DNA from: a virus
Direction: 5' to 3' (one strand)
Virus record (IMG/VR): IMGVR_UViG_3300017991_000358
Location: 1 to 26,947 of that record
Length of the DNA: 26,947 nt
Below, one piece after another: positions 6,300 through 24,348 of the stretch. The notes under the pieces are model-generated. The model was not told the DNA's origin. It was given only the letters and a program-made list of their open reading frames with translations, and did not search any database. The translations under genes and the position numbers were made by a program. Numbering within the stretch: the first letter of the stretch is position 1; each line of letters begins with the position of its first letter.

Positions 6300-6302
6300 C
6301 CC

Positions 6303-7010
6303 ATGGCGACAGGCGACAGAGTCACGACGCACCACCGAGAGGCCCACGTCGCGATTCCAAACCGAATGGGCCCGCGAAAAGCCATGGGCGAGGCACTCGC
6401 GGCGTTCCTTCTCGGTCTCGAGTTCCGGGTCGACGGCGGGGACGACGAGCAAGACGCCGTCTTTTCGCTCGAGCGAGTCTTCGACCGTTGGCCGCTCCCT
6501 GACGAGCGGCTCCCTTACCCGTGTGCGTCTCTCGTCAGTAGGGCGCCTGTTCCCGTGCTCCAACACAATTTGACGCCAACCCCGCTCGAGGAAACGTGGG
6601 GCACGTATGACGGCCTCGTTGCGGGGTGCGCGCCCGGTGGAAAGTCAACGGTGCTCTGGAAAGAGGGCGGGGCAACAGTCGCCTTTCAGGTCGATTTCTG
6701 GTGCGACACCGACGCAGATCGCGAAGCCGTCGAGGCGCTCCTACCGTCGGCGTTTGCGCCCGAGGAAACCGCCGCCGGCGTCATCGTTGAAGGACCGCCC
6801 CTGTACTATTCGCGCCCCGTGCGGCTCGTTCTCGACTCGATGGACTATGACGATTCAGCGGCGAACGCCTACGCCAACGAGCGCCGCTTGCGATGCGTCG
6901 TCGACGCCGACTGTGATATTGTTTCGCTCAGGTGGGCACCTGCGATGAAACCTCCAACCGTGCTGGTGGACGTCGAAGACCCCGCCGATCCAAGTAGCGA
7001 AGAGGACTAG
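6303..7010 (+). CDS. Putative tail terminator/completion protein
   Basis: This 235-residue protein sits directly before the sheath gene, where contractile phages usually encode the tail terminator. The sequence VAFQVDFWCDTDADREAVEA, followed by a beta-hairpin-rich region ending YANERRLRCVV, resembles the strand-helix layout of terminator-type proteins that bind inter-residue wall sites. The first 50 residues are charged and the C-terminus is acidic (DVEDPADPSSEED). GGAG at 6291-6294 is a suitable Shine-Dalgarno for the ATG. The assignment is by context and general pattern. Confidence 0.6.
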   Translation: MATGDRVTTHHREAHVAIPNRMGPRKAMGEALAAFLLGLEFRVDGGDDEQDAVFSLERVFDRWPLPDERLPYPCASLVSRAPVPVLQHNLTPTPLEETWGTYDGLVAGCAPGGKSTVLWKEGGATVAFQVDFWCDTDADREAVEALLPSAFAPEETAAGVIVEGPPLYYSRPVRLVLDSMDYDDSAANAYANERRLRCVVDADCDIVSLRWAPAMKPPTVLVDVEDPADPSSEED

Positions 7011-7024
7011 GGAGGATTTGAGGT

Positions 7025-9232
7025 ATGAGCGCTTTTATTCGGCGGTTTCGCGATCTGCCCACGTTGGAGCAACTCACCGCGATTGAGCAAATCACGATCA
7101 TTGACCGGACTCCGCAGGTCCCTGTAACGGGCGTTGGGTTCGGGACTCTGCTCCTCGTCGGTGAGTTCGAGGACGGCGCGTTCAATACGCCAACCGAGGT
7201 TCTCGGCGCGAACGACGAGCGGTCGAAGTTCGGCGGGTTCGGATACCAATACGGAGATAGCAAGTATCAAAACCCGTGCGGTCGTCGACACTTAGCGGAG
7301 GATTGGAACGGGAACGGATGGATCAAGGGGCTGAATCTCCGACCCCAGCGCAAGATCATTTGTCGTGTCGACACGAGCGTCGGCGACGTCCGGTTCACGC
7401 TCGCCGCCGCGGTCAGATCGGCCGCCGCGCCCTTCGACCTCACCGCGGCCGATCAGGCAACCGTCACCACCGACACCGGAGCCGGGGCCTCGACGGCGAT
7501 CACTGCGACGGTGGCCACGGCCGCCGGCGCGGGGTTCGCCCCCGGGCCCACGGGGTACACCGGAGGCGAGCAGATCGGGATCACGATCGATGCCCTGCCC
7601 GAGGTCGTCGTCTCATTCCAGGTCGGCGACCAGACGGCCGCCAACGTCGTCTCGCGGATCAATGCCTTTCTCGGGTCAACCCTCGCCGTGGTCAACGCTG
7701 GCGAGATCGACATTTCGTCGATCCAGGCTGGCTCGGGAGCGTCCGTCGTGCTCCGCGACGTCACCGACCCGGGCGGCGGCACCACGCTTGCCGCGATCGG
7801 TCACGTCGCCGGCGCGTCGGCCGGCGCGGGCAACGTCGCCAACGTCAACGCCGTTACGGCTGCCGAAGCAGCGAACCTGATCAACTCCGTTGCGGTCGCC
7901 GGCGTCAACGGGATCGCAGCCGTCGACGCCGCAACACAAGAGGTCGTCGTCTATCGCACGGGCTCCGCGACGGGCACGATCAAGATCGACGACACTGTCG
8001 GCACGATGGCAACCGACATGGGGTTTACGACCGGGACGGTCGTTACCGCGAACGTCGGCGCCGCGTTCGACCTCGCCGCCGGAACGCGTGTTCGAAATGC
8101 CGGCGGTGACGAATGGGTCACAATGCGGTCGATCTCCTGGCCCGAGGGCACGGTCGCCGCGCCCAACGACGGGACGCAAGACGTCGAGGTGCGGCCGGCG
8201 ACCGACGACGGAACGGCCCTCACGGCGCTTGCCGGGACCGTAACAACGCTTGCCGACCTTCCCTCGTCTCGAATGGTCGAGGTCACAAACCCGTCGAACC
8301 TGTCGGCCGCGCTCACCGAAGCGCAGATTGACGCCGCCTATGCTGCCGCGTTCACCGCGACCGAGGACCCGACGAAGGTCTCGAGGGCCACGACGGTCAT
8401 GATCTCGGCGCGGCGCTCCGCTCAGGTTATCGTTTCCGGGCGACAGAGCGCGCTCGACGCGAGCGCCGAGGGGTGCCAGGGGCGCGTTTTCGTTTCCCGC
8501 GCTCCCATCGGCTACAGCTCCGCGCAAGCGATCGCAGACGTCGCCAGCTACCGCCGCGATCGGGTCGTTTACACCTGGCCAGGATGGACCATGTACGTTG
8601 CCGAGATCGCCACACTCGGCGCCGCCGGCGGGACGGGGTTCAACGCGTCGGGCATCATCTCGATCGGTGGTGACGGGCCGCTCGCGGATCTCATGTGCGC
8701 CTTGCCGCCGGAGGAGAACGTCGGGCAGGTCACGGGCCGCCCCGATCTGTATCTCGCCGACATCGAGGCGACCGGGGAGACCATGGGGCGCACGCTTTAC
8801 ACGGCGCTCAAGACCGCTGGGATCTGCGCTCCTCGGGTCGACGATGACGGCAACTTCGTTTATCAGAGCGAGGTCACGACGTCGTCGATCGAAGGACGAA
8901 AGACGATCAAGCGCCGGCGCATGGCCGATTACATCCAAGACTCGTTCGCGAAGCTCGCGATCCCGTTCACGAAGAAGCTCGCGACCGACGCCCGGCGCTC
9001 CGGCATGGACGCCGCGGGGACCGAGTTTCTCGAGGGGCTCCTGTCGCGCAACGCTCCCGACGCGCAGCGGATCGCCGATTACTCGTTCGGCGAAGTCACC
9101 AACGAATATGACGGGTACGAGGCGCGCGGGGTCTTCGTTTGGGCGTCCGCCGTCCGGTTGCTCTCCAGCATGGATACGATCGTCTTCGATACCGAGATCG
9201 GCGAGGGCGTCACGATTACCGAGGCCGAATAG
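7025..9232 (+). CDS. Tail sheath protein
   Basis: This 735-residue protein forms the contractile sheath around the tail tube. Typical sheath features are visible: an N-terminal FGTLLLVGEFEDGAFNTPTE segment (about 39-58), FGGFGYQYG, and a C-terminal domain with YIQDSFAKLAIPFTKKLATD that would interlock subunits. Residues about 130-345 are an unusual insertion of alanine- and glycine-rich beta units. Two hook-IN-like copies can be seen there (about 179-264 and 272-337), related to the domain in the protein at 135-866. In an assembled sheath such insertions would lie on the outer surface. A strong Shine-Dalgarno (AGGGAGGA, 7010-7017) precedes the ATG, and the tube gene follows 21 bases later. 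Confidence 0.92.
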   Translation: MSAFIRRFRDLPTLEQLTAIEQITIIDRTPQVPVTGVGFGTLLLVGEFEDGAFNTPTEVLGANDERSKFGGFGYQYGDSKYQNPCGRRHLAEDWNGNGWIKGLNLRPQRKIICRVDTSVGDVRFTLAAAVRSAAAPFDLTAADQATVTTDTGAGASTAITATVATAAGAGFAPGPTGYTGGEQIGITIDALPEVVVSFQVGDQTAANVVSRINAFLGSTLAVVNAGEIDISSIQAGSGASVVLRDVTDPGGGTTLAAIGHVAGASAGAGNVANVNAVTAAEAANLINSVAVAGVNGIAAVDAATQEVVVYRTGSATGTIKIDDTVGTMATDMGFTTGTVVTANVGAAFDLAAGTRVRNAGGDEWVTMRSISWPEGTVAAPNDGTQDVEVRPATDDGTALTALAGTVTTLADLPSSRMVEVTNPSNLSAALTEAQIDAAYAAAFTATEDPTKVSRATTVMISARRSAQVIVSGRQSALDASAEGCQGRVFVSRAPIGYSSAQAIADVASYRRDRVVYTWPGWTMYVAEIATLGAAGGTGFNASGIISIGGDGPLADLMCALPPEENVGQVTGRPDLYLADIEATGETMGRTLYTALKTAGICAPRVDDDGNFVYQSEVTTSSIEGRKTIKRRRMADYIQDSFAKLAIPFTKKLATDARRSGMDAAGTEFLEGLLSRNAPDAQRIADYSFGEVTNEYDGYEARGVFVWASAVRLLSSMDTIVFDTEIGEGVTITEAE

Positions 9233-9253
9233 GTCAGAAAAGAGAGGTAGGCA

Positions 9254-9694
9254 ATGCCTGACAGGCTCAAAGGGCAAGAGGTCGACGTCAACGTCTTTTC
9301 GGCCACGAACGGGCTTGAAACGTCGTTTCAGAACGTGGGGTCGATCGAATTCCAGTTCGACCGGGAGATCCTCTCGGAAGGGTATCTTGGGCAGACGACC
9401 GAGCAGAAGGACGACATCCACACCGGCGTTTCGGGCACGCTCACGATCAACAGTCGAACGGCCGACGTCATGTCCCTGATCCAACGCATCACCGAAGCGT
9501 CGAAAGGCCGCCTCCCCGGGGAGTCGATCCAGATCGTGGCGTCGTATCGGTTCCCGCTCGGCGGGACGCGGCGGGTCGTGATCCCCGATGCGAAGTTCGG
9601 GAACATTCCGATCAACGCGAGCGATCGGAAATCCTACGTCGAATTTCGGTTCGAGTTCGCCGCCGACGACGCAACAATCCTCGCCGCGCCCTGA
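9254..9694 (+). CDS. Tail tube protein
   Basis: This 146-residue protein is the expected partner of the sheath and has the usual length for myophage tubes (about 140-170). The pattern RLKGQEVDVNVFS, GSIEFQFDREILSEGYLGQT, TEQKDDIHTGVSGTLTI and a C-terminal beta-rich stretch ending YVEFRFEFAA is characteristic of tube proteins that stack as hexameric rings. The Shine-Dalgarno is GAGAGG (9242-9247). It is cotranscribed with the sheath. A C-rich 156-base gap with a promoter-like motif follows. Confidence 0.9.
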   Translation: MPDRLKGQEVDVNVFSATNGLETSFQNVGSIEFQFDREILSEGYLGQTTEQKDDIHTGVSGTLTINSRTADVMSLIQRITEASKGRLPGESIQIVASYRFPLGGTRRVVIPDAKFGNIPINASDRKSYVEFRFEFAADDATILAAP

Positions 9695-9733
9695 CCCTCC
9701 CCCCCCATCGTCTCCGCACAATTTTACGCGATA

Positions 9734-9742
9734 GGGTATCCT
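9734..9742 (+). promoter_or_regulatory. -10-like motif GGGTATCCT
   Basis: TATCCT (9737-9742) has the same hexamer as two other motifs here but lacks the TG extension. A start near 9750 would give a leader of about 100 bases before the ATG at 9851. A run of eight C (9699-9706) lies upstream. Confidence 0.4.
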
Positions 9743-9783
9743 CGACGGCGTCCCGTGTCGGCGCCTCCCGGGGTGTCGGTCTC

Positions 9784-9832
9784 CGCTGGTGGTGAGGCGT
9801 CGGCGCGGGGCATTGACCCCCGCACACCAGCG
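9784..9832 (+). promoter_or_regulatory. Structured leader hairpin before the tail chaperone
   Basis: CGCTGGTG (9784-9791) pairs with CACCAGCG (9825-9832). Inside it GCGGGG (9805-9810) pairs with CCCCGC (9818-9823) around a 7-base loop. The Shine-Dalgarno region GGGAGAAAGG (9834-9843) begins just after the outer stem. The hairpin has no following U-run, so it is not an intrinsic terminator; it may modulate translation of the chaperone. Confidence 0.5.
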
Positions 9833-9850
9833 CGGGAGAAAGGCCGATAG

Positions 9851-10414
9851 ATGACGGAAAAGCAGAAGCAGAACAGAAACGCCGAAGAACCCGACGAGAC
9901 GGGGGCGCAGAGCGCCGGAAAGCTCGTCAAGGGGCTAACGTTCGACCCGGGGGCGTTCGACGCGATGGTGGCGCGCACGTCGTCGACGGCGTCGGAAGGG
10001 GGCGAGGCGCGCACGCTTCGCCGGCGCGGGGTCAAGGTCACGGTCTGGCCCGAAATGTGCCGACCGGGAGCATACGACCAACCGATTCAGATCACGCTTC
10101 TCGAGCTGGATTCCGACCAGGAACTCCGAGCGCTCCGAAAGCTCGGTCAGTACGGGCCGGCGCCGTCCGAAGGGAACGAGCTCCCGACCGCCGCCGACGC
10201 GACATCGTCGGGGCAGGCTCTTTCCCTCGTGCTCGGCCGCGCGTCGGTCCATGCCGTCAACGGGCGCGTGCTTGCTCCGCATGAGAAGGATTACCTTTGG
10301 GATTCGCTTTCAATGCCGGGGCGACTCGCCATTGGTGCGGCGTTCCTCGAGCATTGCGCGGGGCTCACCGGGGACGCTTTGGGAAACTCGCTAGCCTCGG
10401 TGGAAATCGAATAA
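9851..10414 (+). CDS. Tail assembly chaperone (gpG-like, unshifted product)
   Basis: This 187-residue product lies between the tube and tape measure genes, the position of the G/GT-type tail assembly chaperones. These bind the tape measure and recruit tube subunits but are absent from the mature tail. The N-terminus is polar and disordered. From about residue 56 it is a compact domain (RRRGVKVTVWPEMCRPGAYD, then ITLLELDSDQELRALRKLG), ending in helices. The Shine-Dalgarno is GGGAGAAAGG, followed by ATG 9851. Near the 3' end, in the right phase, is the slippery heptamer GGGAAAC (10381-10387), which allows a -1 shift into the next frame. Confidence 0.85.
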   Translation: MTEKQKQNRNAEEPDETGAQSAGKLVKGLTFDPGAFDAMVARTSSTASEGGEARTLRRRGVKVTVWPEMCRPGAYDQPIQITLLELDSDQELRALRKLGQYGPAPSEGNELPTAADATSSGQALSLVLGRASVHAVNGRVLAPHEKDYLWDSLSMPGRLAIGAAFLEHCAGLTGDALGNSLASVEIE

Positions 10415-10662
10415 GTGGCTCCCTTCGCCGCCATCCCGAGGTCGCCGTCCAAATTTACGTCGGCATCCTCCTCGCGTTCGAGGGGCCGTGGCGCGAGGGC
10501 GGCGTCGAGGAGATCTGGCGAAGAGTCGCGTTTGCGACGCGATACGGCCACATCGGGCTCGCCGAGGCCCTCACAATGCCCGTGCGCGATCTGGCTCTCT
10601 ACGGTCGCGCTCTCGCCGATCTGATCGAGAGCGAGAACACGCCGTCGCCGGGGGCGGGGTGA
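9851..10662 (+). CDS. Tail assembly chaperone, -1 frameshift fusion (gpGT-like)
   Basis: Predicted product of a programmed -1 ribosomal frameshift at GGGAAAC (10381-10387). The 0-frame reads ttG GGA AAC. After slippage reading continues at CTC 10387 in the -1 frame, giving 179 plus 91 residues (270) and ending at TGA 10660-10662. The T-like part contains PEVAVQIYVGILLAFEGPW, an EEIWRRVAFATRYG helix and LYGRALADLI. This region has no good start of its own; its only upstream ATG (10297) lies inside the G-like gene without a ribosome binding site. Stem bases 10395-10403 and 10431-10441 lie 7 bases after the heptamer. The layout matches lambda G/GT and the equivalent genes of many myophages. Confidence 0.85.
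10381..10441 (+). promoter_or_regulatory. Programmed -1 frameshift site: slippery heptamer and downstream stem
   Basis: GGGAAAC at 10381-10387 fits X XXY YYZ with the reading phase G GGA AAC. CCTCGG (10395-10400) plus TGG (10401-10403) can pair with CCA (10431-10433) plus CCGAGG (10436-10441), giving nine pairs with a two-base bulge. The spacer is 7 bases, within the usual 5-9. The 0-frame stop is at 10412-10414, inside the loop. Confidence 0.85.
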
Positions 10663-10668
10663 TACTCT
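10660..10668 (+). promoter_or_regulatory. Extended -10 motif TGATACTCT overlapping a stop codon
   Basis: TACTCT (10663-10668) with TGA in front; that TGA is the stop codon of the frameshift product. The motif ends 6 bases before the ATG at 10675. No Shine-Dalgarno is present. Confidence 0.55.
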
Positions 10669-10674
10669 GACCCC

Positions 10675-12894
10675 ATGGCCGACGAATCATACAAGGTCGA
10701 AGCCGAACTCGAGTTGCGAAACGCGCGGGGCGTCGCCGCCGACCTCACGAAGGCGGCCGACGCGTTCGAGCGGTTCGGCGATCAGAACCGAAACGCAAAT
10801 CGAGCACTTTCCGAGGCCGCGAGGGCGACACGGCGCGCGGAGCGCGCAACTGAAGAGTACAGGCGGCAACTCGCCCGCGTCGGGCAGGTCGCCGGGGCCG
10901 CCTATCGCCGGATCGGCGGAACCTTCTCGCGCCTCGGGACGGCGGCGCGCATGTCGAGGGCGTCGACGGGGCATACCGTTCGGAACCTCGTTGCTCTCGG
11001 CGCAACCTACATGGGGATCAACGCCGTCGCCGGCGCGTTCGAGCGACTCGTCGGCGCCACGACGGCGGCAAACTCGAGCGTGGAAAACACGATCCTCTCC
11101 GTTGCGAGTCTGTACACCGAGATCGAGCGTGTTTCGTTCGCCGACGCACAACGCGAAGCGGCGGGCCTGTATCGCCAGCTCGAGCAACTCGCTATTTCGA
11201 GCCCAGGGACGACGGCGAACCTCTCCGATATGTTCACGATGGCATACGGCCCGATGCGGAGGGCGGGCGTCGAACTGAACCGCCTCACGACCTTTTCTCG
11301 CGACGCTGTCGCCGTGGCGTCGGCGCTGCGGATCGATGCTCCGCAGGTTGCCAGAGACATTTCGATGCTCATGACCGGCGTGGCAGGCACCGACGTTCGC
11401 ACGTTTCGCACGCTCCGATCCATGGGGATGATCACCGAATCGACGGAGGAGTGGAACGAGATGGCGCAACGTGCGCCAGCCGAGGCCGCCCGCCGCTTGA
11501 TGGATATCTTCGACCGACTCGGTCGACAGAGCGCCGAAGCGTTCGGCCGCACATGGTCGGGCGTGACGTCGGCGTTCTCCGACATCACCCAATATTTCAT
11601 GAGGGCGATTTCGTCCCCGGCGTTTCGCGTGCTCCGCGACAACCTCCGACGGCTCAACGACACGTTGATCAAGTTTCGCCCGGGGATCGAGAAGGTGCTA
11701 ACGGCCGTAGGCGGCGGTATCGCGCGAGTTTTCGCCGGTGTGATCGAACGGATGCGCCGCGCGTTCGTCTGGGTGATCACGAACCTCGACACGATCGGAG
11801 CCCGGATCGATTCCGTCATCGCGACGTTTCGCCGGCTTGCTCCGATGGTGCGATCGATGTTGATCGCCGGCGTGGCGTTGAAGATCGGCGCGGGGGTGCT
11901 CGGTGCGGTGCTAGCCGGGGCCGGAGCGATCATCTCAACGATCGGTGGTGCCGTCTCCGCGTTGCTTCCGCTTCTCGCCGGCGGCGGCGGAGCGGGAATA
12001 CTCGGGATGCTCGGGATCGGTGGCGGGGCGACGGCGGCGGCCGGAGGGGGCGCAGCCGTCGCCGGGGGCGGGGCTCTCGCCGCGATCGGGCTTCCTGCCG
12101 GGGTTGTGGGCATTCTCGCCGTGGCGGCGGCGCTCGAAGTCGCGCTAGGGGCCCTTGTGACGGCAATCGGCGTCGCGGCCGGGACGGTAACGATCATTGT
12201 TTCTGTTTTCGTTGCGCTCCAACGGCAAGGCGACAGGCTCCGCGGATATTTCGAAGGATCGGGGCGGGCACTCGTCGGCGCCGTCAACAATTTCTGGGCG
12301 GCGCTTGTCGGGATTTGGGCGGCGGTTTCCCCATGGCTCGAGACGCTCGGTTTCATCATCGTGGGCGTCGTCGTTTCGGGATTCCGAATTCTCGCCGATG
12401 TGCTTCTGTTTCTGTCGAAGGTCGCCCGCGTTGTGTCGGTGGTGATCATGTTGGTCGGGCGCGCGCTCGCGCCGATGGCCCGGGTTATCCGTGAGGTGTT
12501 TCACGACCTGTTCACCCAACTTCGGCTTTTCTCGGCCGTGCTCGCTCGGTTCATTCGATGGTTGCCGGGCGCGACCGGCATGGTGATTCCGTCCGTGTCG
12601 CTCCCGCAAGGGCAGGGGGGCGGCGTCAGTGACGGGATCGATCGTTGGTTTGCCGACTTCATGTCGGCGCTTCGGGGGAGCAATCAACCGACGACCGAGG
12701 GCGGCGGCGGCACGGGGACCGCGCCGGAGGCCCGCCCATCCGTCAACGTCGATATGCGCGGCGCTCGAATCGAAGTCAACCAGGAATTCCGCGAAGCCGA
12801 CCCGGATCGCGTCTGGGTGCGCTTCCGTGACGCGCTCGAACGTGAGGCCGTGCAACGGGTCGGGTCGGGCTTCGTCCCGGCCCTAAGTCGCTGA
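10675..12894 (+). CDS. Tape measure protein
   Basis: This 739-residue protein would set tail length and is ejected ahead of the DNA. The N-terminal 90 residues are charged and helical (ELRNARGVAADLTKAADAFE). A middle region (about 100-330) contains the SSVENTILSVASLYTEIERV segment seen in tape measure proteins. Residues about 395-520 are strongly hydrophobic with glycine and alanine repeats and several potential membrane helices, as expected for a protein that enters the host membrane. The C-terminus has PSVNVDMRGARIEVNQEFRE, then DPDRVWVRFRDALE, a common tape measure ending. At about 1.5 angstrom per residue the predicted tail is roughly 110 nm. The gene follows the chaperones and lacks a Shine-Dalgarno. 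Confidence 0.9.
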   Translation: MADESYKVEAELELRNARGVAADLTKAADAFERFGDQNRNANRALSEAARATRRAERATEEYRRQLARVGQVAGAAYRRIGGTFSRLGTAARMSRASTGHTVRNLVALGATYMGINAVAGAFERLVGATTAANSSVENTILSVASLYTEIERVSFADAQREAAGLYRQLEQLAISSPGTTANLSDMFTMAYGPMRRAGVELNRLTTFSRDAVAVASALRIDAPQVARDISMLMTGVAGTDVRTFRTLRSMGMITESTEEWNEMAQRAPAEAARRLMDIFDRLGRQSAEAFGRTWSGVTSAFSDITQYFMRAISSPAFRVLRDNLRRLNDTLIKFRPGIEKVLTAVGGGIARVFAGVIERMRRAFVWVITNLDTIGARIDSVIATFRRLAPMVRSMLIAGVALKIGAGVLGAVLAGAGAIISTIGGAVSALLPLLAGGGGAGILGMLGIGGGATAAAGGGAAVAGGGALAAIGLPAGVVGILAVAAALEVALGALVTAIGVAAGTVTIIVSVFVALQRQGDRLRGYFEGSGRALVGAVNNFWAALVGIWAAVSPWLETLGFIIVGVVVSGFRILADVLLFLSKVARVVSVVIMLVGRALAPMARVIREVFHDLFTQLRLFSAVLARFIRWLPGATGMVIPSVSLPQGQGGGVSDGIDRWFADFMSALRGSNQPTTEGGGGTGTAPEARPSVNVDMRGARIEVNQEFREADPDRVWVRFRDALEREAVQRVGSGFVPALSR

Positions 12895-12917: not shown

Positions 12918-14003
12918 ATGACCGCCGAGGCGCTCACCATCACAGAGTTGACCGGCTCGCAACGCTCGATCGTGCTTCGCGACAGGGTGCTACCGTACCG
13001 CCCTGTCGCGTGGGGCGGGGCTCATGAGCGGGTCAAAACGTGGTACGCGGGCAACCCAGTTGCCACGATTCAAATGCTCGGCCCTCGAGAGCGCGAAACC
13101 GAAATCCGCGGGACGTGGAAAACGCGCTACATCGCCGCCGACGGGGCGCGCATGGTGTCGCTTTGGGGCTTCGACGACCTCGCCGATTCCGACGATGGCA
13201 TCACGGCCGAGATCCTCGTCGCCGCGTTCAAGCGGCTCCGCGTTGCCGGAAATCTGCTCCGGGTGTCATGGGGGCCCGAGGTGCGCCGTGGGGTGCTCGC
13301 GGAATTCACGCCGAACTGGCAACGCCCCGAAGACGTGGAATGGTCGGCCCTCTTCGACTGGACGCAGATCGGCGACGTCGACGCTCCTCGCGCCGCCGAC
13401 GTCTCGCAACCGTCGGTTGATCTCGAGGCAGAAATGGCCGCGCTCGATGACGTGGCGAGTCGATTGCCCCCGATCATCATTCCGAACGTCACGACGGCGT
13501 TGATCGCAGCCGAAGAGGCCGTAAGAATCGCCGCCGTAACCCTGGCGGGGCAGGTCGCCGCCGTCGCCGGCGTCCCCGAAATCGGGTCGGAGCAGTTCCG
13601 AGGAATCGCCGCGACGGTCGACGCGCTCGTGACGGAAGGCGCTGCGTTGCGCGCCCTCGTCGAAGATGGGGGCCTCGAGTTTCTGATTCCGACCGACGGC
13701 GCCGTCGACGTGCTCGGCGTCGGCGCATGGCGCGGGGACCTCTCCGCGGCGGTGCTCGCTCTCCTGGTCGCTGCCATCGCGGCTCGTGAGGGCGTGCGCG
13801 GTCGCCTCGTCGACGATTTCCTCGCGGTCGTGGTGCTCCGCGGCGGTCAGACGCTCCGCACGCTCGCTAGGGACTACTACGGCGACGCCGGCGCATGGAT
13901 ACTGATCGCCGACGCAAACGGCTTCACAATCTCGAATCCTCCGGTTGGAACGATCCTTGTCATTCCGAGGCGGGGCGGCGCGGGCGTCGGGGCGTCGGTG
14001 TGA
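12918..14003 (+). CDS. LysM-domain baseplate/tail protein
   Basis: This 361-residue protein starts the baseplate cluster. The N-terminal 130 residues form a beta-rich tail domain (RDRVLPYRPVAWGGAHERVK, then ATIQMLGPRERETEIRGTW) typical of proteins encoded right after the tape measure. Residues about 155-300 are alanine-rich and helical. The last 55 residues are a LysM-like module: LRTLARDYYGDAGAWILIAD, then ANGF, then PPVGTILVIP. LysM modules bind peptidoglycan-type glycans, and in contractile systems they are found in hub-associated proteins (P2 gpX-like or T4 gp53-like). The start lacks a Shine-Dalgarno and follows a -10-like motif. The stop overlaps the next start (GTGA). Confidence 0.82.
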   Translation: MTAEALTITELTGSQRSIVLRDRVLPYRPVAWGGAHERVKTWYAGNPVATIQMLGPRERETEIRGTWKTRYIAADGARMVSLWGFDDLADSDDGITAEILVAAFKRLRVAGNLLRVSWGPEVRRGVLAEFTPNWQRPEDVEWSALFDWTQIGDVDAPRAADVSQPSVDLEAEMAALDDVASRLPPIIIPNVTTALIAAEEAVRIAAVTLAGQVAAVAGVPEIGSEQFRGIAATVDALVTEGAALRALVEDGGLEFLIPTDGAVDVLGVGAWRGDLSAAVLALLVAAIAAREGVRGRLVDDFLAVVVLRGGQTLRTLARDYYGDAGAWILIADANGFTISNPPVGTILVIPRRGGAGVGASV

Positions 14004-15790
14004 CCACGTTTCGGCCGTCGGCTCGAGTCAAGCTCACGATCCGAACCGAGGAATTCTCCGAAGTCGACGGGCTCGAATCTCGCCTCCCTCCCGGAACCGC
14101 ACCGGGAACGGGCGTGCCATGGGCGCCCCCGCCGCCCGAGGCGGCCCCTCATGCGTCGAGCGAGGGCGCAACGACCACCGACACGGTCGAGGCCCTTTCG
14201 CGCAACCAGGAGCGACGCAGGGCGCTACAACGACGGCGGGGCGAGTTATCTGCCGACGACTACGATCGGCAACTCCGAGCAATTGACGAAGAGTGGGAGG
14301 ACATCTACCGGGGGAACGTCGCGAACGCCGGCGGTGACGATCACCCCCCGGAGGCCGTCACGGGCGCGGTCGACGACGATCTAACGGTCGTGGGGTACGT
14401 CGAGCCGCGCTCCGTCTCGATTGAGCGAAACGGGCTTGCAAGCGCCGATACTGCGACGTTGGTAATCGATTTTCTCGACGCGCCGATCGACCCGCGGATC
14501 GTTAGGTCGGCCCACGTCGAAATCGTGATCGGGGTCGTGCCAGCCGACGATTACGAAGCGGGGCTCGAGCGGGGCGAGACGCGCGACGACGGATCTCTCC
14601 GGTCTCTCGTCGCCCCCGCCATCGAGGGCACGGTTCCGCGTGGCGCGACCAGGTTTCTAGGCTACGTCGACGAATGGGACGTGTCCTATTCGGAGCAGGG
14701 CGACACGATTACGATCGAATGCCGCGACATGAGCGCGCCTCTCCGAGATTTACCGCTTCCGGCGGGGCTCTCGATCGATCTGTCGCTTCCGCTCGACGAA
14801 GGGGTGTCGGCATTTCTCGAAACCGCGAGCGCCACAACCAGGGGCGTCACGGTTTCCTACCGCGGGGCGGGCGACCCACCGACGCCGGCGGATTCGATGC
14901 CCGCGAGCCGTCGCGCTCGTCGGGGTTCGGTTGCGCGACGTGCCCGGCGGGGCGGGTCGTCTATGTCGCTATGGGACCACATCACCGACGTTTGCCGCGG
15001 CGTCGGCCTCCTTCCGGTGGTTGACGGATTCGACGTCGTGCTCCTCGACCCCCGAACGCTCGTCGTCTCCGAGGGGATTCGGCGCATGGTTTACGGGCGC
15101 AACCTCCAACGGCTCGAGTTTTCCCGTCGTCTTCAGGGGTCGAAGGTGCCGACGATCGAGGTACGCTGCTACGACCCCGACATCGGCCGCGTGATATGGG
15201 CGCGTTTCCCCGTGAGGAGCGGTGAGCGTCGAAGCGGAGTGCTCGGCCGTGACAACCCGCCGCGAGCTCTCCGAGCCAACGAGGTCACGCCGTCGGGGGC
15301 GAACCCCGACGACACGATCAAGACTCTGATCGTGTCGGGAATCACCGATCCCGCGCTCCTTGAGCGAATCGCCGAATCGGCGTTCGATCAGATCGGCCGA
15401 CAGGAGATCGAAGGGACGCTCGCAACGCTCGACGCGTGGAGCTATGACCGGACACCCGATCTCGCCGATTTGCTTGATCTCGACCCGGGCGATTCCGTCG
15501 AGGTGCTCGTCGCCGCCGCGTCGGGCGAGGAGTCGGAGGCCGAAGGCACCACAACGAGCTTGGCACGTCTCACGGCGATGGAACGGGCCCGGCGCGCTTC
15601 GTATCTCGAGGCCCTCGGGTGGCCACGGGCGGTCGCTCAGCGGTTCGCCGCGCTTCAGGACGCTACAGGGTTCCAAACCGTTTTCCGCGTCCAAGACGTG
15701 CGGCTCGACTTCGACGCGCAGCTCGGCTTGAAGATCGAGGCGGGGTTCGTGAACTACATCGAAGTCAGAGAAGACGAGGCGGGATCGTGA
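14000..15790 (+). CDS. Baseplate hub protein (gpD/gp27-like)
   Basis: The start is the GTG at 14000, overlapping the previous TGA. A longer frame exists upstream but only within that gene. The 596-residue product has an N-terminal beta element, a charged, proline-rich insertion (about 25-115), then hub-like beta domains: ATRFLGYVDEWDVSYSEQGD, then TITIECRDMSAPLRDLPLPA. The later part (RRMVYGRNLQRLEFSRRLQG, then VPTIEVRCYDP) is typical of phage late control gene D-type hubs, which form the trimeric ring above the spike. It lies between the LysM protein and the OB-fold spike, as in many contractile systems. The stop overlaps the next GTG start. Confidence 0.82.
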   Translation: MTTFRPSARVKLTIRTEEFSEVDGLESRLPPGTAPGTGVPWAPPPPEAAPHASSEGATTTDTVEALSRNQERRRALQRRRGELSADDYDRQLRAIDEEWEDIYRGNVANAGGDDHPPEAVTGAVDDDLTVVGYVEPRSVSIERNGLASADTATLVIDFLDAPIDPRIVRSAHVEIVIGVVPADDYEAGLERGETRDDGSLRSLVAPAIEGTVPRGATRFLGYVDEWDVSYSEQGDTITIECRDMSAPLRDLPLPAGLSIDLSLPLDEGVSAFLETASATTRGVTVSYRGAGDPPTPADSMPASRRARRGSVARRARRGGSSMSLWDHITDVCRGVGLLPVVDGFDVVLLDPRTLVVSEGIRRMVYGRNLQRLEFSRRLQGSKVPTIEVRCYDPDIGRVIWARFPVRSGERRSGVLGRDNPPRALRANEVTPSGANPDDTIKTLIVSGITDPALLERIAESAFDQIGRQEIEGTLATLDAWSYDRTPDLADLLDLDPGDSVEVLVAAASGEESEAEGTTTSLARLTAMERARRASYLEALGWPRAVAQRFAALQDATGFQTVFRVQDVRLDFDAQLGLKIEAGFVNYIEVREDEAGS

Positions 15791-16542
15791 CGACAAGGGG
15801 ACCGGCGGCGCGTGCTCGAGTTCGTCGACGGCTCGACTTCGCCCGGATCGCCGACGCCATAGCGCGCCCCGGGATTGACCCGCGGCCGTGGGTCGCCGAG
15901 GCCCGCGTTGACGACGACGACGACGCGATCGTATGGGACGCCGAGATCGGTTGGCTCGTCGACGTGACGCTGACGACTGGGGAGCACGCCGGCGAGGGCC
16001 CCGTGGTCTGTCGCGTGGCGTCGCCAGCGCAAGGGGCCGGCGTCACCATGGCTCGGCCGCCTCGCCGTGATTCGCGCGTGCTCGTCGTCTTTCCCGACGG
16101 CGACCCAAACACCGACGCTGTGGTCGTCGGACAACTCCACGACGCCGAAGAATTCGGCGCTCCATCCGAGGTCAACGGCGACAACATCACCGAAGACCTC
16201 GCGCTCGAGACGTGGATCACGGTCGCCCCCGACGAAAATCTCGACGAGCAATGGCGAAACGTGCGGATCACGGTCGCCGATGACGGCGGCGCCATGGTGC
16301 TCGGGGCCGCCGAGGCCGACCAAGCGTTCGCCCGCGGAAATGACCTCGCCGATGCTCTCGATGATTTCGCCGCCGCCGTCGGCGACTTCGCTCAAAGCCT
16401 CGCTGCCTCGACGCCCGCGCCACCGAACGGGGCGCTTACCGTGGCCGATGCGATCGCCGCCGCCGCGCCCCTTATTGCCGCCGCCGAGGCGTTCCAGGCG
16501 TCTCGCGCTCAATACCTTTCGACTCGCATCGTTGGCGATTGA
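15787..16542 (+). CDS. Baseplate spike protein with OB-fold (gpV/gp5-like)
   Basis: The start is the GTG at 15787, overlapping the stop of the hub gene. The 251-residue product has a basic N-terminus. Residues about 50-130 look like a gp5/VgrG OB-fold: GWLVDVTLTTGEHAGEGPVV, then RDSRVLVVFPDGDPNTDAVV and VGQLHDAEEFG. A short beta-type stretch (WRNVRITVADDGGAMVLG) may form part of a spike helix. The last 70 residues are alanine-rich and helical. No lysozyme domain is present. The role would be the central membrane-piercing spike below the hub. Confidence 0.75.
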   Translation: MTTRGPAARARVRRRLDFARIADAIARPGIDPRPWVAEARVDDDDDAIVWDAEIGWLVDVTLTTGEHAGEGPVVCRVASPAQGAGVTMARPPRRDSRVLVVFPDGDPNTDAVVVGQLHDAEEFGAPSEVNGDNITEDLALETWITVAPDENLDEQWRNVRITVADDGGAMVLGAAEADQAFARGNDLADALDDFAAAVGDFAQSLAASTPAPPNGALTVADAIAAAAPLIAAAEAFQASRAQYLSTRIVGD

Positions 16543-16583: not shown

Positions 16584-17582
16584 ATGACGATCCATCGAAC
16601 GCTGAATCAGGCGGGACTCGGCGGGAATTACACGACGTGGTGGTTGATTAAGACGCTCGAGGCCGCGGGTTGGGTGATCGGCTCCTCGGGCTCGGGAACA
16701 GGCGGTATCTTCTCGGGCGTCGGTGACGTGTTCGACCCCGCCATCAATCCGGTGGTCAACAGCGCTATCACGAGCATCGGCGTCGGCATCGGCTCCGAGA
16801 ATTGGGGGAATGCTCGATGTTGGGTTGTGCTCACAGCGCCCGACGGATCGCAGCTTGCGATCCAGCGTGATGACACCAACGCCGACTCCTACGATGACGA
16901 ATGGGCATATCAATACAGCCCGGCCGGGACGTATCAGCACACATCGGGGCTCGCGAATACCGTTCCGCCCTCCATCGATGCGATCGATATACACGGGACG
17001 GTGAATAGTTCGTGGCCATCGATTCACGAAAACGGCGGAACGGCTAACCTGATTCAAATCGCTGCCGATGATGCCCTCTCGCCCGCTGGTTTCAGCGGGT
17101 TTATCATGCTCGAAATGATCGCCTCGAATCAGATCGAGTCGATGTTGATGATGGATGATTTTCGCAACGTCCCGAGTGGGCAGTTCGCTGCTCACGCGAA
17201 AACAATCTACATAAACGACGGCCCCGACTCGTGCGATTGGGCGCAGCTTACGTCGCTTACGGTCGGCCCGAAAACAATCATCGATTACGGGGGGGGTTCC
17301 GAGGCGTGGGAATGCGCGCCGTGCCACAGGATCGTGGATGGGGTCGCGCATAACCTTTATCCGAATGCCGGGGGTGCCCCTGCTAGCGGGGAGGTGCCAT
17401 TCCCAGTGCCCATTGGCCGCTATGACCATGGTGGCTTCGGCGGCCTCTCGCGCTGGCTCAAATGGGCGGCGGTGAGCCGTGGTTACAACGAACGCTCCGT
17501 CTCCGAACTCCTCTGGTATTTCGGCGACGTGGTCATTCAAGACCTTTCCGACGGCGTGACGATCCCCGCTTCGATTCCGTGA
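16584..17582 (+). CDS. Unrecognised protein in the baseplate cluster
   Basis: I do not recognise this 332-residue protein. It sits between the spike and the gp25-like gene, so it is probably a baseplate or tail-tip component. It is rich in glycine, serine, isoleucine and aromatic residues, with no membrane segment or signal peptide. The first 20 residues (MTIHRTLNQAGLGGNYTTWW) look like a helical anchor. The rest appears beta-rich. It has four cysteines: ARCWV, DSCDW and a CAPCH pair (residues 244-248). An eight-G run (17289-17296) lies within the coding frame as GGG codons. Base composition is somewhat less GC-rich than in the neighbours. A receptor-binding or tail-tip role is possible but not shown. 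Confidence 0.75.
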   Translation: MTIHRTLNQAGLGGNYTTWWLIKTLEAAGWVIGSSGSGTGGIFSGVGDVFDPAINPVVNSAITSIGVGIGSENWGNARCWVVLTAPDGSQLAIQRDDTNADSYDDEWAYQYSPAGTYQHTSGLANTVPPSIDAIDIHGTVNSSWPSIHENGGTANLIQIAADDALSPAGFSGFIMLEMIASNQIESMLMMDDFRNVPSGQFAAHAKTIYINDGPDSCDWAQLTSLTVGPKTIIDYGGGSEAWECAPCHRIVDGVAHNLYPNAGGAPASGEVPFPVPIGRYDHGGFGGLSRWLKWAAVSRGYNERSVSELLWYFGDVVIQDLSDGVTIPASIP

Positions 17583-17594
17583 GGAGGAGGCAGC

Positions 17595-17777
17595 ATGGCG
17601 ACGTGGCTCAACGACCCGATCGCGCTCTCGCTTCCGATTCATTTTGACGCATCGTATTTGAATCAAACGATGAGAACCACGCCGGGCCCCGCGCCTGTTA
17701 TCTCGAATGAGGTACCGACGCCGGGTTCGACGCAAGCCCCCCCCCTTGTGCTCATCTCCGTTGACGTGGAGTCGTAG
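17595..17777 (+). CDS. 60-residue protein sharing its N-terminus with the next gene
   Basis: A strong Shine-Dalgarno (GAGGAGGAGG, 17581-17590) precedes ATG 17595. The first nine residues (MATWLNDPI) are identical to those of the following gene, and the first 28 bases are an exact repeat (17595-17622 and 17780-17807). The remainder is proline- and serine-rich with no known domain, and carries a nine-C run near the end (17737-17745). It could be a small tail protein, or a remnant left by a tandem duplication of the next gene's start. The intact frame and good ribosome binding site favour expression. Confidence 0.6.
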   Translation: MATWLNDPIALSLPIHFDASYLNQTMRTTPGPAPVISNEVPTPGSTQAPPLVLISVDVES

Positions 17778-17807
17778 AAATGGCGACGTGGCTCAACGAC
17801 CCGATCG
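17595..17807 (+). repeat. Exact 28-base direct repeat at two start codons
   Basis: Copy one is 17595-17622 and copy two is 17780-17807. Both begin with ATG and encode MATWLNDPI in frame. The sequences diverge immediately after the repeat. Confidence 0.9.
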
Positions 17808-18823
17808 AACTTTTCCTGAGCGGGATTGTTGGGACCTCGCTTACCGTTACGGTCTCCAACCCCTCGGTCGGAGTTGTTGTTGTCTACGACCCGTTTCTAG
17901 GCGGTTGGCAACCAGGATGGAACGGCGGTTTCACCGGGCTCGGTGACGGCGATATCGCAGTTTCGATCACCACGATCCCGGCGCTCGCATCGGGTGCATG
18001 GACTGTGATTGTTTCCGCGACCGCCTATGGCGGCGCTCTCGGCGGGGGGTCGTGGTCGTTTGCGTTAGCGACCTTCGCTATTGTCACCGCGTATCAAACG
18101 AGTTTGAACACGGTTGACGTGACCTTCGACGCGGAACCGAAGCACCTTGACCCCGTTGATCCTACCGATGGAACAAACCGCACGAATTTTGTTATCGCCG
18201 GGCCTGTCGCGCCATACCCAGAACGGCTCCTACAGGTCGTGACATACGAGGGTGACAACACACTCCGTCTTTGGTTCGACGGCGAACTCGTACCCGGCGA
18301 AATTTATATTATCACGCTATCCGGTATCGAAAGCGTCGGGGGAACCCCGCTTACCGGGTTAGGAGTTTTCGCGTTCTTGGCGTTCGGCGCCGCTGACGTG
18401 CCCGTTCCGCTTGAACTGGAGACCCTCGACGCCTACGACATACGAAACCCTCTTGCCGACCGTGACGCACCGACAGGGGCCGCTCTCGGCCAAGTCGTGC
18501 TCGATGAGACGGGCGACATCGACGTCGAGGCGCGGCGGCGGTATTTGCGGAAACGGATCTTTCGTCGTCTCGGAACGAGAAAAGGGGCAATGCTCCACCT
18601 TTCTGATTACGGGCTCGAAATCGACTCAAAACGGCTTCTGAAAGCGGCCGAATTGCGAAAACTGCAAGCCGACGCCGAGACGCAAATCAAAAAAGAACCT
18701 GGTGTGCGAGCCGTTCGTGTAAGCGTTCGGCAAATCCAACCAGGTCTTGTTTATTTGAAGATCAAGGTGCGCGACAAGTTCGGCTCGCTCGACATCGAGG
18801 GGGCGTTCGGAGGGGACGAATAA
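17780..18823 (+). CDS. Baseplate wedge protein: Ig-like domains fused to a gp25-like domain
   Basis: This is a 347-residue protein. The C-terminal 130 residues match the gp25/W wedge family: DAYDIRNPLADRDAPTG, VEARRRYLRKRIFRRLGTRK, GAMLHLSDYGLEI, then VRAVRVSVRQIQPGLVYLKI. Gp25-like proteins usually stand alone at about 110-150 residues and help trigger sheath contraction. Here about 210 residues precede the domain, looking like two beta sandwiches (about 15-95 and 96-200). The second has the pattern NTVDVTFDAEPKHLDP, then YIITLSGIESVGGTPL, which resembles SbsA-type Ig-like domains. The Shine-Dalgarno GGAG (17768-17771) precedes the ATG. It overlaps no gene and is two bases after the previous stop. 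Confidence 0.82.
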   Translation: MATWLNDPIELFLSGIVGTSLTVTVSNPSVGVVVVYDPFLGGWQPGWNGGFTGLGDGDIAVSITTIPALASGAWTVIVSATAYGGALGGGSWSFALATFAIVTAYQTSLNTVDVTFDAEPKHLDPVDPTDGTNRTNFVIAGPVAPYPERLLQVVTYEGDNTLRLWFDGELVPGEIYIITLSGIESVGGTPLTGLGVFAFLAFGAADVPVPLELETLDAYDIRNPLADRDAPTGAALGQVVLDETGDIDVEARRRYLRKRIFRRLGTRKGAMLHLSDYGLEIDSKRLLKAAELRKLQADAETQIKKEPGVRAVRVSVRQIQPGLVYLKIKVRDKFGSLDIEGAFGGDE

Positions 18824-18825: not shown

Positions 18826-19956
18826 ATGCCGGATCTCCCGACTTTTTCCGATCTGTTTGATGTTTTCGCCGAGGAAATCCAAGCCCGCGGTGAATCGAAG
18901 CCTGTCGGTCAACGGTTCTCTCCGTCGGAAATTTACACGCCGGGTTCCGATATCAACCTAATCGGGGCCGGCGCCGCCGCCATGGCCGAAGACGTAATTC
19001 GAACGCTCGGTGGTGAGTTGCTCGCGCTCACACTCGACGGCGCAGAAGGCGAAGATCTCGACCGATGGGGGGGGGATCGATATTCCGCAACAATCCCAAG
19101 AAAAACAGCAACGCCTTCTGTGGGATCGCTGCAATTCACGCGACCAACAACGGCCGCCGGCGCCGTCGTTCAGTCGTCGGGTTCAATCATGCGAACGAGC
19201 GGCGGTGTTCGAGTCGAAACGCTCGCCGCCGCGTCGTTCGGCGCGGGGTCGCTCGGCCCGGTCAACGTCCCTGCGCGTGCTGTCGAGGCGGGGACCGCCG
19301 GCAACGTCGACGAAAACACGATCACGGCGTTTGTCTCGGCGAAGGCCGACCAAACGCTCCTCGTGACGAACCCCGACGTGTTCGCCGGCGGTGACGACAC
19401 CGAAACCGACGAGCGGTTCAAGGTTCGTCTTCGGGCGTTCTTCGCCGCGGCTCGTCGAGGGGTGCTCGCCGCCGTCGAGTTCGGCGCCTTGACCGTCCCG
19501 GGCATTCGACAGGCGGCGGCAGTGGAGCTGGTATCGCTCCCCCTCGGAGTGCCCAACGGGTTCGTTCGGGGCTATGTCGCCGACGCACAAGGGCGGGCAA
19601 ACGCCGACCTCGTCGCGCTCGTCGAGGCCGCGCTACTTGATTTCCGGGGTGCAGGGATCGTCGTCGACGTGCTCGCCGCTGTCCCGTATTACCAGGCGAT
19701 CGAACTCGACATCGACTTCGCGTCTGGAACCGACACCGTCGCCGCGTTTGACGACGTCGCCGATACGATCGTCGCTCGAGTAAACGCGCTCGCTCCTGGC
19801 GAGACGCTCCTTCGGTCTCGAATTGTGACCGCGGCCGAGTCGATTACGGGCGTGATCGTTCCCGATGGCGCCGTGGTCGTGCCGGCCGGCGACGTCGTGC
19901 CGACGGCAAACCAGGTGATCCGCACACGTCGCGATCTGATCACCTCGGTCGTGTAG
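18826..19956 (+). CDS. Baseplate J-like wedge protein
   Basis: This 376-residue protein has the classic baseplate J layout. There is an N-terminal helical region with GAEGEDLDRWGGDRYS, then a central beta domain (GSLQFTRP, then GVRVETLAAASFGAG). VNVPARAVEAGTAGNVDENT follows, then the DDTETDERFKVRLRAFFAAA helix, and a C-terminal domain ending in repeated beta-alpha units. The P2 J/T4 gp6 family forms the wedge ring that clamps the tube and sheath. It follows the gp25-like gene by two bases, with Shine-Dalgarno GGAGGGG (18809-18815). A nine-G run (19067-19075) is in frame. Confidence 0.9.
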   Translation: MPDLPTFSDLFDVFAEEIQARGESKPVGQRFSPSEIYTPGSDINLIGAGAAAMAEDVIRTLGGELLALTLDGAEGEDLDRWGGDRYSATIPRKTATPSVGSLQFTRPTTAAGAVVQSSGSIMRTSGGVRVETLAAASFGAGSLGPVNVPARAVEAGTAGNVDENTITAFVSAKADQTLLVTNPDVFAGGDDTETDERFKVRLRAFFAAARRGVLAAVEFGALTVPGIRQAAAVELVSLPLGVPNGFVRGYVADAQGRANADLVALVEAALLDFRGAGIVVDVLAAVPYYQAIELDIDFASGTDTVAAFDDVADTIVARVNALAPGETLLRSRIVTAAESITGVIVPDGAVVVPAGDVVPTANQVIRTRRDLITSVV

Positions 19957-21278: not shown

Positions 21279-21301
21279 CCGACAGGAGACGACGCCCATG
21301 A
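21275..21301 (+). other. Mini-cistron (MTDRRRRP) overlapping the next start
   Basis: An eight-codon frame opens at ATG 21275, 7 bases after a -10-like motif. Its TGA (21299-21301) overlaps ATG 21298 of the fibre-like gene as ATGA. The Shine-Dalgarno of that gene lies inside it. It may couple leaderless initiation to the next gene, or be a chance result of the short leader. Confidence 0.4.
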
Positions 21302-22854
21302 TTCACGACGGAATCCCGATCACCACGCTCGAGCGCACGGTTTCAACCGATGTTGTCAACGCACAAGAACTCGCAGCCCGAACGGCGGCCGAGATGCTCT
21401 CGGCGCTCCGGGCGCGCTCTGCGAGGGGGAGTGTCCCCGCGTCGACGCCGACCGTTGGGCTTCGTACTTCGATCGCGTCGGGGCTCATGGCCAGGGTTAG
21501 CGGCGTCGACCTCGTCGTGTCCGTCGGGCTCCTCGCTCAATTGGTCCCGGCAAGCCCGCCCGACGTGCCCGCCCCGGGAGCGCTCGATTCCGACTATCGG
21601 GTCGGCTTGCAAATGGTCGAAGAGACGCTCGCCGACCCATGGGACGGCACGAACAGATGGTGGCTCCTCGAAGCTCGCGTCGTGCGGGAAACGACGCTCG
21701 AGGAAAACCGCGACATCTACAATCCGGCGACGCTCTCCTATTCCCTAAGCGGTACGACGCTCCCGAAGCGGTACGAGAGCCGGATCGAGTATCAATGGAC
21801 CGCGGGGACGCTGGCCGCTGTCCCCGCGACGTCAGCAAACTGGGCACCGATCGCGGCGCTGTTCCGGCCCGCCGGAGGCGGCCCCTTGTCGGAGTCCTAT
21901 CTGTTCCCGCTGACGTTGCAACTCGAGGATATCGTAACGCCCGGGACGGCGGCGGGGCGGTGTCGCCGATCGCGGTATTTCATGCGCCCGATCAACGGCC
22001 TTGGTCGCGATTCCTCCGACTTCGAGATCGACCTGGAAACGGAAGTCGCCGGCGTCCGGTGCCACGCTCGCACGCTCACGGGTCAGACGTTCCAACCCCG
22101 CGGACTCGTCGTCGAGGCGGCGTCCATCGCCGCGCTCAACGTCGCCGACACTTGGGGTTATGTCTACCTCGCGCCGGGCCCCGATATGATGCCACGAAAG
22201 AATCACTACGGGGAAACCGGACTCGAGGTGCAAGGGTTTCTTGTCGTGTCACGCACGCCCCCCGACGAGCACGGCGCAAACTCTCTCGCCGTCACGACGC
22301 CCGCCCCCCTCCAATACGTCATCGGTGCAGGCGAGGCCGCTTGCGTCGGGCTCGTGCGGTCTGCCGGCGGCGCGACGGCGTGCCGATTCGTCGCGTGCTC
22401 GTCGGAGGGCGAGGGACGCATCACGGCGCGCGAGTTCGTTGGCGGGTTTGCGATGCTCGCCGCCAACACATTCGGCTCCGCAGGATCTCCCCATAACCTT
22501 GCAGTAATCGGCCCCGGCGGCACAGAAGATGTGCCCTATGGTGTGATCCTGCGGTGCTTCGTTGAACACACCACGCTCGACGCGACGGCCGTGGCGGCGG
22601 CTCTCGAGACCACCTTCGGGATGGGGTCGGCGCTCGGCCTCGCTGACGACGTCGCCACCCCCGGTTCATGGCCGCGGATCATGCTGTCAACAAACATACT
22701 CCAGTCCAAAGAGTTCGAGCTTCACCCGAATGGAAACCTCTCGTTGCTCGTCTCCTACGTGCCGCGGACTTCCGCCATGGCAAATAGCGGAGGCGGCGCC
22801 GCCGACGGCGGGACGACGGTGCTCCGGGCAGGGATGCACGGGTTTCGGTTCTAG
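21298..22854 (+). CDS. Putative tail fibre/tail-tip protein, paralogue 1
   Basis: This 518-residue protein lies after the second J-like gene, where fibre or collar proteins are encoded. The N-terminus (ITTLERTVSTDVVNAQELAA, then RTAAEML) is matched by the next protein (VTTLERVVSQDFNRAQDI). The shared core includes PGALDSDYRVGLQ, WWLLEARVVRETTLEENRDI, YNPAT, a SRTPPDE loop and EDVPYGV. Segments between the conserved blocks differ strongly between the two. There is no signal peptide or membrane segment. I infer a structural tail-tip or fibre role, perhaps host recognition. The start is supported by AGGAG (21284-21288). Confidence 0.72.
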   Translation: MIHDGIPITTLERTVSTDVVNAQELAARTAAEMLSALRARSARGSVPASTPTVGLRTSIASGLMARVSGVDLVVSVGLLAQLVPASPPDVPAPGALDSDYRVGLQMVEETLADPWDGTNRWWLLEARVVRETTLEENRDIYNPATLSYSLSGTTLPKRYESRIEYQWTAGTLAAVPATSANWAPIAALFRPAGGGPLSESYLFPLTLQLEDIVTPGTAAGRCRRSRYFMRPINGLGRDSSDFEIDLETEVAGVRCHARTLTGQTFQPRGLVVEAASIAALNVADTWGYVYLAPGPDMMPRKNHYGETGLEVQGFLVVSRTPPDEHGANSLAVTTPAPLQYVIGAGEAACVGLVRSAGGATACRFVACSSEGEGRITAREFVGGFAMLAANTFGSAGSPHNLAVIGPGGTEDVPYGVILRCFVEHTTLDATAVAAALETTFGMGSALGLADDVATPGSWPRIMLSTNILQSKEFELHPNGNLSLLVSYVPRTSAMANSGGGAADGGTTVLRAGMHGFRF

Positions 22855-23252
22855 GAAAGGCGGGCGACAATGGCAATTCAAGGCACCGTTCCAGTAACCA
22901 CGCTCGAACGTGTAGTGAGCCAGGATTTCAACCGGGCTCAGGACATCATCAATCGTACCGTCGTCGAGGCGTTCCGCGTCTGGGCCCGAGAAATTCGCTC
23001 CGGTCTGACTCCGATACAAGCAGACGTTACCAACGTCGCCTCGGGCTTGACGGTTGTTCAATCGGCCGGAACAAACGTGGTTGTAAACCCCGGGCTCCTC
23101 GCTCAAGACGTCGCGGCGAGTCCGCCCGCCGTCCCGACGCCCGGAGCACTCGATTCCGACTATCGGATCGGCCTCCAGCTCTCGACGCACGACCCCGGCG
23201 ATCCGTGGGATGCAACGGCGGCATGGTGGCTCCTCGAAGCTCGCGTCGTGCG
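21657..23252 (+). repeat. Exact 30-base direct repeat shared by two paralogous genes
   Basis: The 30 bases at 21657-21686 are identical to 23223-23252. They encode WWLLEARVV in both fibre-like genes. The two copies are about 1.57 kb apart and would support recombination between the genes. Confidence 0.9.
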
Positions 23253-24348
23253 AACGACGACGCTCTCCGAGGCCCGCGACATTTTCAACCCAGCAACGGA
23301 AACGTTCGCGCCGTCGGGCGCTCCTCTTGACAAGCAATATGAGTCGCAAATCGAGTTTGCCTGGAAAAAGGGCACGGCCTCGCAGATACCGACGCCAACG
23401 GCTGGCTTCGCGCGCATCGGCGCCCTGTACCGCCCCGCGCTCGGCGGCGCGATTACCGACGCCGACATCGTGCAACTCGTCGCACAAGTCGACGACCTGT
23501 CCTCGCACGTTGGAATCAACGGGACGGCGAAGCGCGACAATTTCCGTTTCCGCGTCGACCCCACGACGCTTGACGCGACGTTCAGTCTTGCCGGGCAAAG
23601 CGACGGGGTGCGCGTCTGGGCTCATGGCCATACCGCGCAGACCTTGCGATCCGTCGTTTTCATCGACCCGGGCGACGTCGGAGACATCGCTACCGCCGAT
23701 CTGTGGTGGTACGTGTACCTTGCGGCGGGGAACGGCTGCCTTCCATCGAACCTTTACGGGGCAAACATTGACCATCGGGGTTTGATCATCGTCTCGAGAA
23801 CGCCCCCGAACGAGTCGGGGACGAATAGCGGCGCAATCCAATCGCCCGACCCGTTCCCGGCGACGATCGGCACGGGAAAGGCTGTGCATCTCGGGTGCTT
23901 CGCGGGAAGCGGCGCCGGGGCAAACATGGCGCCGATCGATGTCGCCGACAACGGAGAGGGCGTTATCCCCGATGATTACGCGGTGATCGGGTTGACGGCC
24001 GCGAACAGTTACTTGAACGGCACTCCAACGGATTTTGGGATTCTGGGGCCCGGCGCAACGGAGGCGGTCCCCTACGGCGTGGATCTCGAACTCGAAATCA
24101 GAACGAATTTTCTCGACCCCACGTCCGTTGCGCTCGGCATGTTTTGGGTGCAAACGGCCGTCGGAGAAATGACCCCGTTCGTTGCGTCGTGTCGCGATCT
24201 CGGCCTCTGGAAATCGTGGTGGCACAAGGGCGCGTCTTTAATCATCACGCCAACGGCGACAGGGCTTTCCGTTGCGATGGCAACGATCGCCGTCGCAAAC
24301 GTTGCGAACAACGTGTACGAGCTTCGAGTTTGCGGCATACGTTTTTGA
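22870..24348 (+). CDS. Putative tail fibre/tail-tip protein, paralogue 2
   Basis: This 492-residue paralogue of the preceding protein starts 15 bases after it, with Shine-Dalgarno GGAAAGG (22854-22860). Conserved blocks occur in the same order: TTLERVVSQDF, PGALDSDYRIGLQL, WWLLEARVVRTTTLSEARDI, FNPAT, GLIIVSRTPPNESGTNSGAI, GATEAVPYGV. The C-terminal part differs. The pair looks like an old tandem duplication followed by divergence, as expected for proteins under host-range selection. An alternative is that the two form a heteromeric tail-tip structure. Confidence 0.72.
   Translation: MAIQGTVPVTTLERVVSQDFNRAQDIINRTVVEAFRVWAREIRSGLTPIQADVTNVASGLTVVQSAGTNVVVNPGLLAQDVAASPPAVPTPGALDSDYRIGLQLSTHDPGDPWDATAAWWLLEARVVRTTTLSEARDIFNPATETFAPSGAPLDKQYESQIEFAWKKGTASQIPTPTAGFARIGALYRPALGGAITDADIVQLVAQVDDLSSHVGINGTAKRDNFRFRVDPTTLDATFSLAGQSDGVRVWAHGHTAQTLRSVVFIDPGDVGDIATADLWWYVYLAAGNGCLPSNLYGANIDHRGLIIVSRTPPNESGTNSGAIQSPDPFPATIGTGKAVHLGCFAGSGAGANMAPIDVADNGEGVIPDDYAVIGLTAANSYLNGTPTDFGILGPGATEAVPYGVDLELEIRTNFLDPTSVALGMFWVQTAVGEMTPFVASCRDLGLWKSWWHKGASLIITPTATGLSVAMATIAVANVANNVYELRVCGIRF

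Follow-up and report, generated by a model that had tools for sequence, protein, structure and literature searches.

An exact 28-nt repeat at two consecutive gene starts beside a gp25-type baseplate gene of a viral contig, and its possible origin in gene splitting

The repeated start and the genes around it

The window, meaning the whole stretch of DNA that was analysed, is one linear IMG/VR record of 26,947 bases. Its genes follow a contractile-tail order, in which hub and spike candidates are succeeded by a 332-aa gene, a 60-aa ORF (P0001), a gp25 fusion (P0002), a Baseplate_J gene, and more tail genes. The features considered below are as follows.

13895-16542: baseplate hub and spike candidates
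16584..17582, + strand: 332-aa gene, immediately upstream of the 60-aa ORF and within a low-GC stretch
17595..17777, + strand: 60-aa ORF P0001, with coding-like codon usage, GAGGAGG upstream, and residues 33-58 that resemble the first Ig-like strands
17595..17622, + strand: repeat copy 1, the first nine codons, including the start, of the 60-aa ORF
17737..17745, + strand: run of nine C inside P0001, read by eye, a weak point for sequencing
17775..17821, + strand: proposed inserted or junction stretch, comprising TAG and AA, then the 28-nt copy and roughly 8-11 nt more, placed by frame arithmetic, the join test, and inference, with approximate borders
17780..17807, + strand: repeat copy 2, identical to copy 1, the first nine codons, including the start, of the gp25 fusion
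17780..18823, + strand: gp25 fusion P0002, 347 aa, with a partial Ig-like region (about 14-97), a second beta domain (about 98-210), and a gp25-like part (about 240-345)
18826..19956, + strand: Baseplate_J protein (E 5.1e-26), directly downstream of the gp25 fusion

The sequence ATGGCGACGTGGCTCAACGACCCGATCG occurs exactly twice in the window, at 17595-17622 and 17780-17807, and both copies begin at the A of consecutive ATGs that lie 185 nt apart. No third copy exists in the window at three or fewer mismatches. A chance origin was rejected because 100 shuffles gave no copy, and the next longest direct repeats found in the window measure 19 and 18 nt once a diverged gene pair at 21.5-23.3 kb is set aside. 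When the 20 other gene starts of the window were compared with their own 1.5 kb upstream, the longest match was only 7-13 nt. The exact duplication of 28 bases at two successive start codons, which the original prediction had reported, is therefore true and nonrandom. The span given for it, 17595-17807, extends from copy 1 through the last base of copy 2. Identity beyond the repeat drops to about background (20/60 after, 7/20 before), and both ends are abrupt. The original statement that the rest differs completely thus holds for the DNA, but not fully for the protein, where likeness reaches weakly to 13 residues (MATWLNDPIxLxL). The 28 identical nucleotides without any silent change, together with the abrupt ends, point to a recent short copy, unlike a diverged gene duplication, and tandem gene duplication with slow divergence was rejected on the same grounds, the adjoining bases being at background identity. 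The 28-mer had no match in viral_contigs, nor did the locus DNA in annotated phages. A second case of similar starts on adjacent tail genes is seen at 21298-22854 and 22870-24348, two consecutive genes that are copies of each other, now diverged (75% and 82% identical in DNA across stretches of 103 and 87 nt), with the N-termini PITTLERTVS and PVTTLERVVS.

The codon score of P0001 in its own frame is -0.08, compared with a 5th percentile of -0.11 for real genes and a 95th percentile of -0.49 for shifted frames. Its start is preceded by the SD-like site GAGGAGG, and its junction with the gp25 gene, TAG-AA-ATG, leaves a stop-to-start gap of 2 nt, equal to that between the gp25 and Baseplate_J genes. 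Normal codon usage, the SD-like site, and the 2-nt junction suggest that P0001 is, or until recently was, coding sequence, while its product might have little or no function of its own. P0001 had no match in NCBIfam or the PDB, neither P0001 nor P0002 had one in annotated phages, and genome_contigs, searched with two alignments, gave none. P0001 was found in 0 of 8 related records, an empty answer that, for this search, carries no weight. Neither promoters nor terminators were found in a scan of 17300-18100. GC content falls from about 0.66 to 0.55-0.62 across approximately 16.5-19.1 kb, which spans the 332-aa gene, the 60-aa ORF, and the gp25 fusion, and the GC3 of the gp25 gene (0.632) is the lowest among the genes listed; the dip is in keeping with an exchanged stretch. 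The 332-aa gene had no family match and no counterpart in 13 related records.

The gp25 fusion and its homologs in related records

The locus is best read as encoding a gp25-type wedge protein of the baseplate, with an N-terminal Ig-like domain. P0002, whose ATG is preceded by the SD-like GGAG, scores 17.1 bits against Pfam GPW_gp25, which is below the curated cut-off of 27.2, and weakly matches phrog_975 (E 0.0083), and its gene stands directly before the Baseplate_J gene, the position of a gp25 wedge. The sole PDB sequence match of the gp25 part is TssE 6gj1 (E 0.012). In a Foldseek comparison, the P0002 model, with a mean pLDDT of only 60, matched the gp25-like 2ia7 with E 1.8e-3 and a target TM of 0.64; the model also has many other structural matches, including the S-layer protein SbsC, an Ig-like beta-sandwich. 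The gp25 part is presumably essential. Searches with P0002 in viral_contigs and with Baseplate_J in annotated phages gave no match.

A nearly identical record (G003, L010; same or sister phage) is 99.9% identical over window positions 1-12405 and then ends before the locus. The nearest relative that covers the region is IMGVR_UViG_3300035698_015109 (hereafter G005), whose gp25 homolog is a 949-aa protein with 47% identity to P0002 over residues 40-345 and with E 7.4e-6 against phrog_975. It carries five complete tandem Ig-like units ahead of the shared core, and its N-terminus is MAIYGSFLYG. This homolog is encoded at 6751-9600 on the minus strand of L019 (G005:C1), and its units are about 110 aa each, the first two being very alike; the array may expand and contract. 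The Ig region of G005 had no match in annotated phages. At the locus itself G005 has no small ORF and no repeat, and in place of the 332-aa gene and the 60-aa ORF of the window it has genes of 819, 648, and 95 aa. In other relatives the gp25 fusion measures about 290-300 aa, starts with a Gly-rich, aromatic stretch, and lacks a full Ig-like unit of the G005 kind. Across the eight records whose gp25 starts were compared, 8-13 nt at most are shared with their own upstream sequence, versus 28 in the window. Among these eight, G012 and G013 are nearly identical and the start of G009 was taken as the first GTG, not the likelier inner ATG, while L003, L005, L006, and L007 were left out because their gp25 matches to P0002 were weak or below the default limit. 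The original prediction had named, as counterevidence, relatives that lack the small gene and the repeat together with absence of the peptide; relatives of that description are indeed seen, which corresponds to one half of the statement. No relative with an uncut gene was found.

Complementarity of the two proteins within an Ig-like unit

A profile of about 110 positions was built from the five Ig-like units of G005. P0002 matches it from position 37 to 108 only (22.1 bits), that is, relative to G005 it has the later part of one unit and misses the first strands. P0001 alone matches from position 1, at 1.8-4.2 bits. Of 1000 shuffles, hmmsearch scored 910 and left 90 unreported, and 17 of those scored did as well as P0001. 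The tail of P0001, APVISNEVPTPGSTQAPPLVLISVDVES, aligns to the first Ig-like strands, the best G005 unit being PPVISNNLPTGANEDGAVDISFDCSDD. Joined together, P0001 and P0002 cover profile positions 1-108 with 28-30 bits, versus 22 for P0002 alone. The joined score was reached by 10/1000 and 13/2000 shuffles, and by 6/1292 and 6/2150 natural 51-residue segments from other proteins of the window, which gives an empirical frequency of about 0.3-1%. MAFFT, unprompted, aligns the P0001 tail with the first strands and leaves a gap in P0002 at these positions. When single G005 units were compared with the tail, one beat most shuffles (18/2000 were as good), whereas 410-1166 of 2000 were as good for the other four. 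Neither P0001, P0002, nor the joined domain matched an Ig family in Pfam or PHROGs. Structure does not decide the matter, since AlphaFold2 confidence is mostly below 50 for P0002 residues 1-97 and averages 48 in the poor reference model of G005. That residues 33-58 of P0001 represent the missing first part of the Ig-like unit of P0002 is suggestive only.

Possible origin of the repeated start

The explanation that we favor, with a probability of roughly 0.45, is that an Ig-gp25 wedge gene was recently cut in two by a short insertion that contained a stop codon and repeated the gene's own start. In a single recent event, about 41-44 nt, comprising an in-frame stop codon and a duplicate of the gene's opening 28 nt, would have been inserted into the Ig-like domain within its first third. 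With 185 nt between the two starts (2 mod 3), the reading frame and the spacing of the Ig-like unit would both be accounted for if 41 or 44 nt had been inserted. The upstream piece would then have become the 60-aa ORF, consisting of the old N-terminus and the first strands of the domain, and the downstream piece would have been rescued by the copied ATG in the right frame, yielding the 347-aa protein. The gp25 part would thereby stay expressed, probably by re-initiation across the 2-nt gap. We infer the insertion, its order and recency, and the translational coupling. Two features weigh against a split, which need not produce an SD-like site and an operon-like 2-nt gap unless these were selected, and which does not require the copy to begin precisely with the first base of ATG; a copied piece that begins at ATG is what one would expect if a working start was selected, though not to the base.

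One alternative, possible but rather doubtful, is module replacement, in which foreign DNA recombined beside the gp25 start and left the start twice, P0001 being a small accessory gene or incoming scrap that never belonged to the same domain. The GC dip, the three other genes in G005, and the abrupt ends of the repeat all agree with such an exchange, but the P0001 tail resembles just that Ig-like part which P0002 is without; the 0/8 result for P0001 among relatives also speaks against it, though without weight. The suggestion in the original prediction that the repeat marks a recombination event is accordingly sustained in kind, by the exact repeat and the features just named, but we prefer the splitting of one gene to a swap of modules. 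The same complementarity would acquire another meaning if both products were made and fitted together, P0001 completing the truncated Ig-like domain of P0002 with its missing first strands to form a natural split domain whose halves share nine N-terminal residues, but we regard this as improbable.

An artifact is unlikely, though somewhat less so than such a split domain. A local mis-join could have duplicated the 28 nt in a metagenome contig, the true gene being continuous; the locus is known from a single contig, the only nearly identical record ends before it, and a run of nine C lies within P0001. A mis-join at a shared word, however, normally yields one copy, not two, and here the repeat starts exactly at ATG, the stop-AA-ATG junction is clean with an SD-like site, and the 347-aa frame is kept. 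We give still less credit to the idea, put forward in the original prediction, that MATWLNDPI is a docking tag, a shared address directing both proteins to the same baseplate site. Nine identical residues at two consecutive starts would suit an address, but the identity is at the DNA level without silent change, the motif heads no other gene in the window, and the gp25 homologs of the eight relatives begin otherwise. The proposed search for such starts elsewhere gave 19 MxxWLNDPI matches in 18 IMG/VR stretches, and none of the 19 heads a recognizable baseplate protein. Hardly credible is a programmed frameshift, by which ribosomes translating P0001 would slip into the reading frame of gp25 and produce an extended protein. 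The ORFs do follow one another and occupy different frames, as this would need, but a TGA at 17762-17764 interrupts the gp25 frame and confines any shift to 17765-17777, where no slippery heptamer was seen by eye, and the gp25 gene has its own ATG and SD-like site.

The repeated start thus probably has an ordinary cause, namely the splitting of a gene within a tail region that recombines, and its likeliest reading is as a local oddity, not a new system. The case for a split Ig-gp25 gene illustrates how a single step may both divide a phage tail gene and rescue it, through duplication of the gene's start, in the setting of a region where Ig-like modules are exchanged. Should the two halves of the domain work in trans, the assembly would be unusual; otherwise, the locus cautions that the 60-aa ORF should not be annotated as a new baseplate protein. 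The C-terminal part of P0002 is alike, weakly by profile and perhaps by fold, to gp25-like wedge proteins (GPW_gp25, PHROG 975 and 43, and TssE of type VI secretion), and P0002 likewise adjoins Baseplate_J, but it differs from them in its much longer N-terminal beta domains, its sub-cut-off Pfam score, and its repeated start. Ig-like domains on phage structural proteins form a known class, beta-rich units in tandem on a tail gene, which is clear in G005, whereas P0002 holds just the later portion of a single unit, the first part possibly lying on a separate ORF. With the G005 gp25 fusion the window shares the gene order around Baseplate_J, but the proteins themselves contrast, 347 aa with a partial Ig-like unit against 949 aa with five units and another N-terminus.
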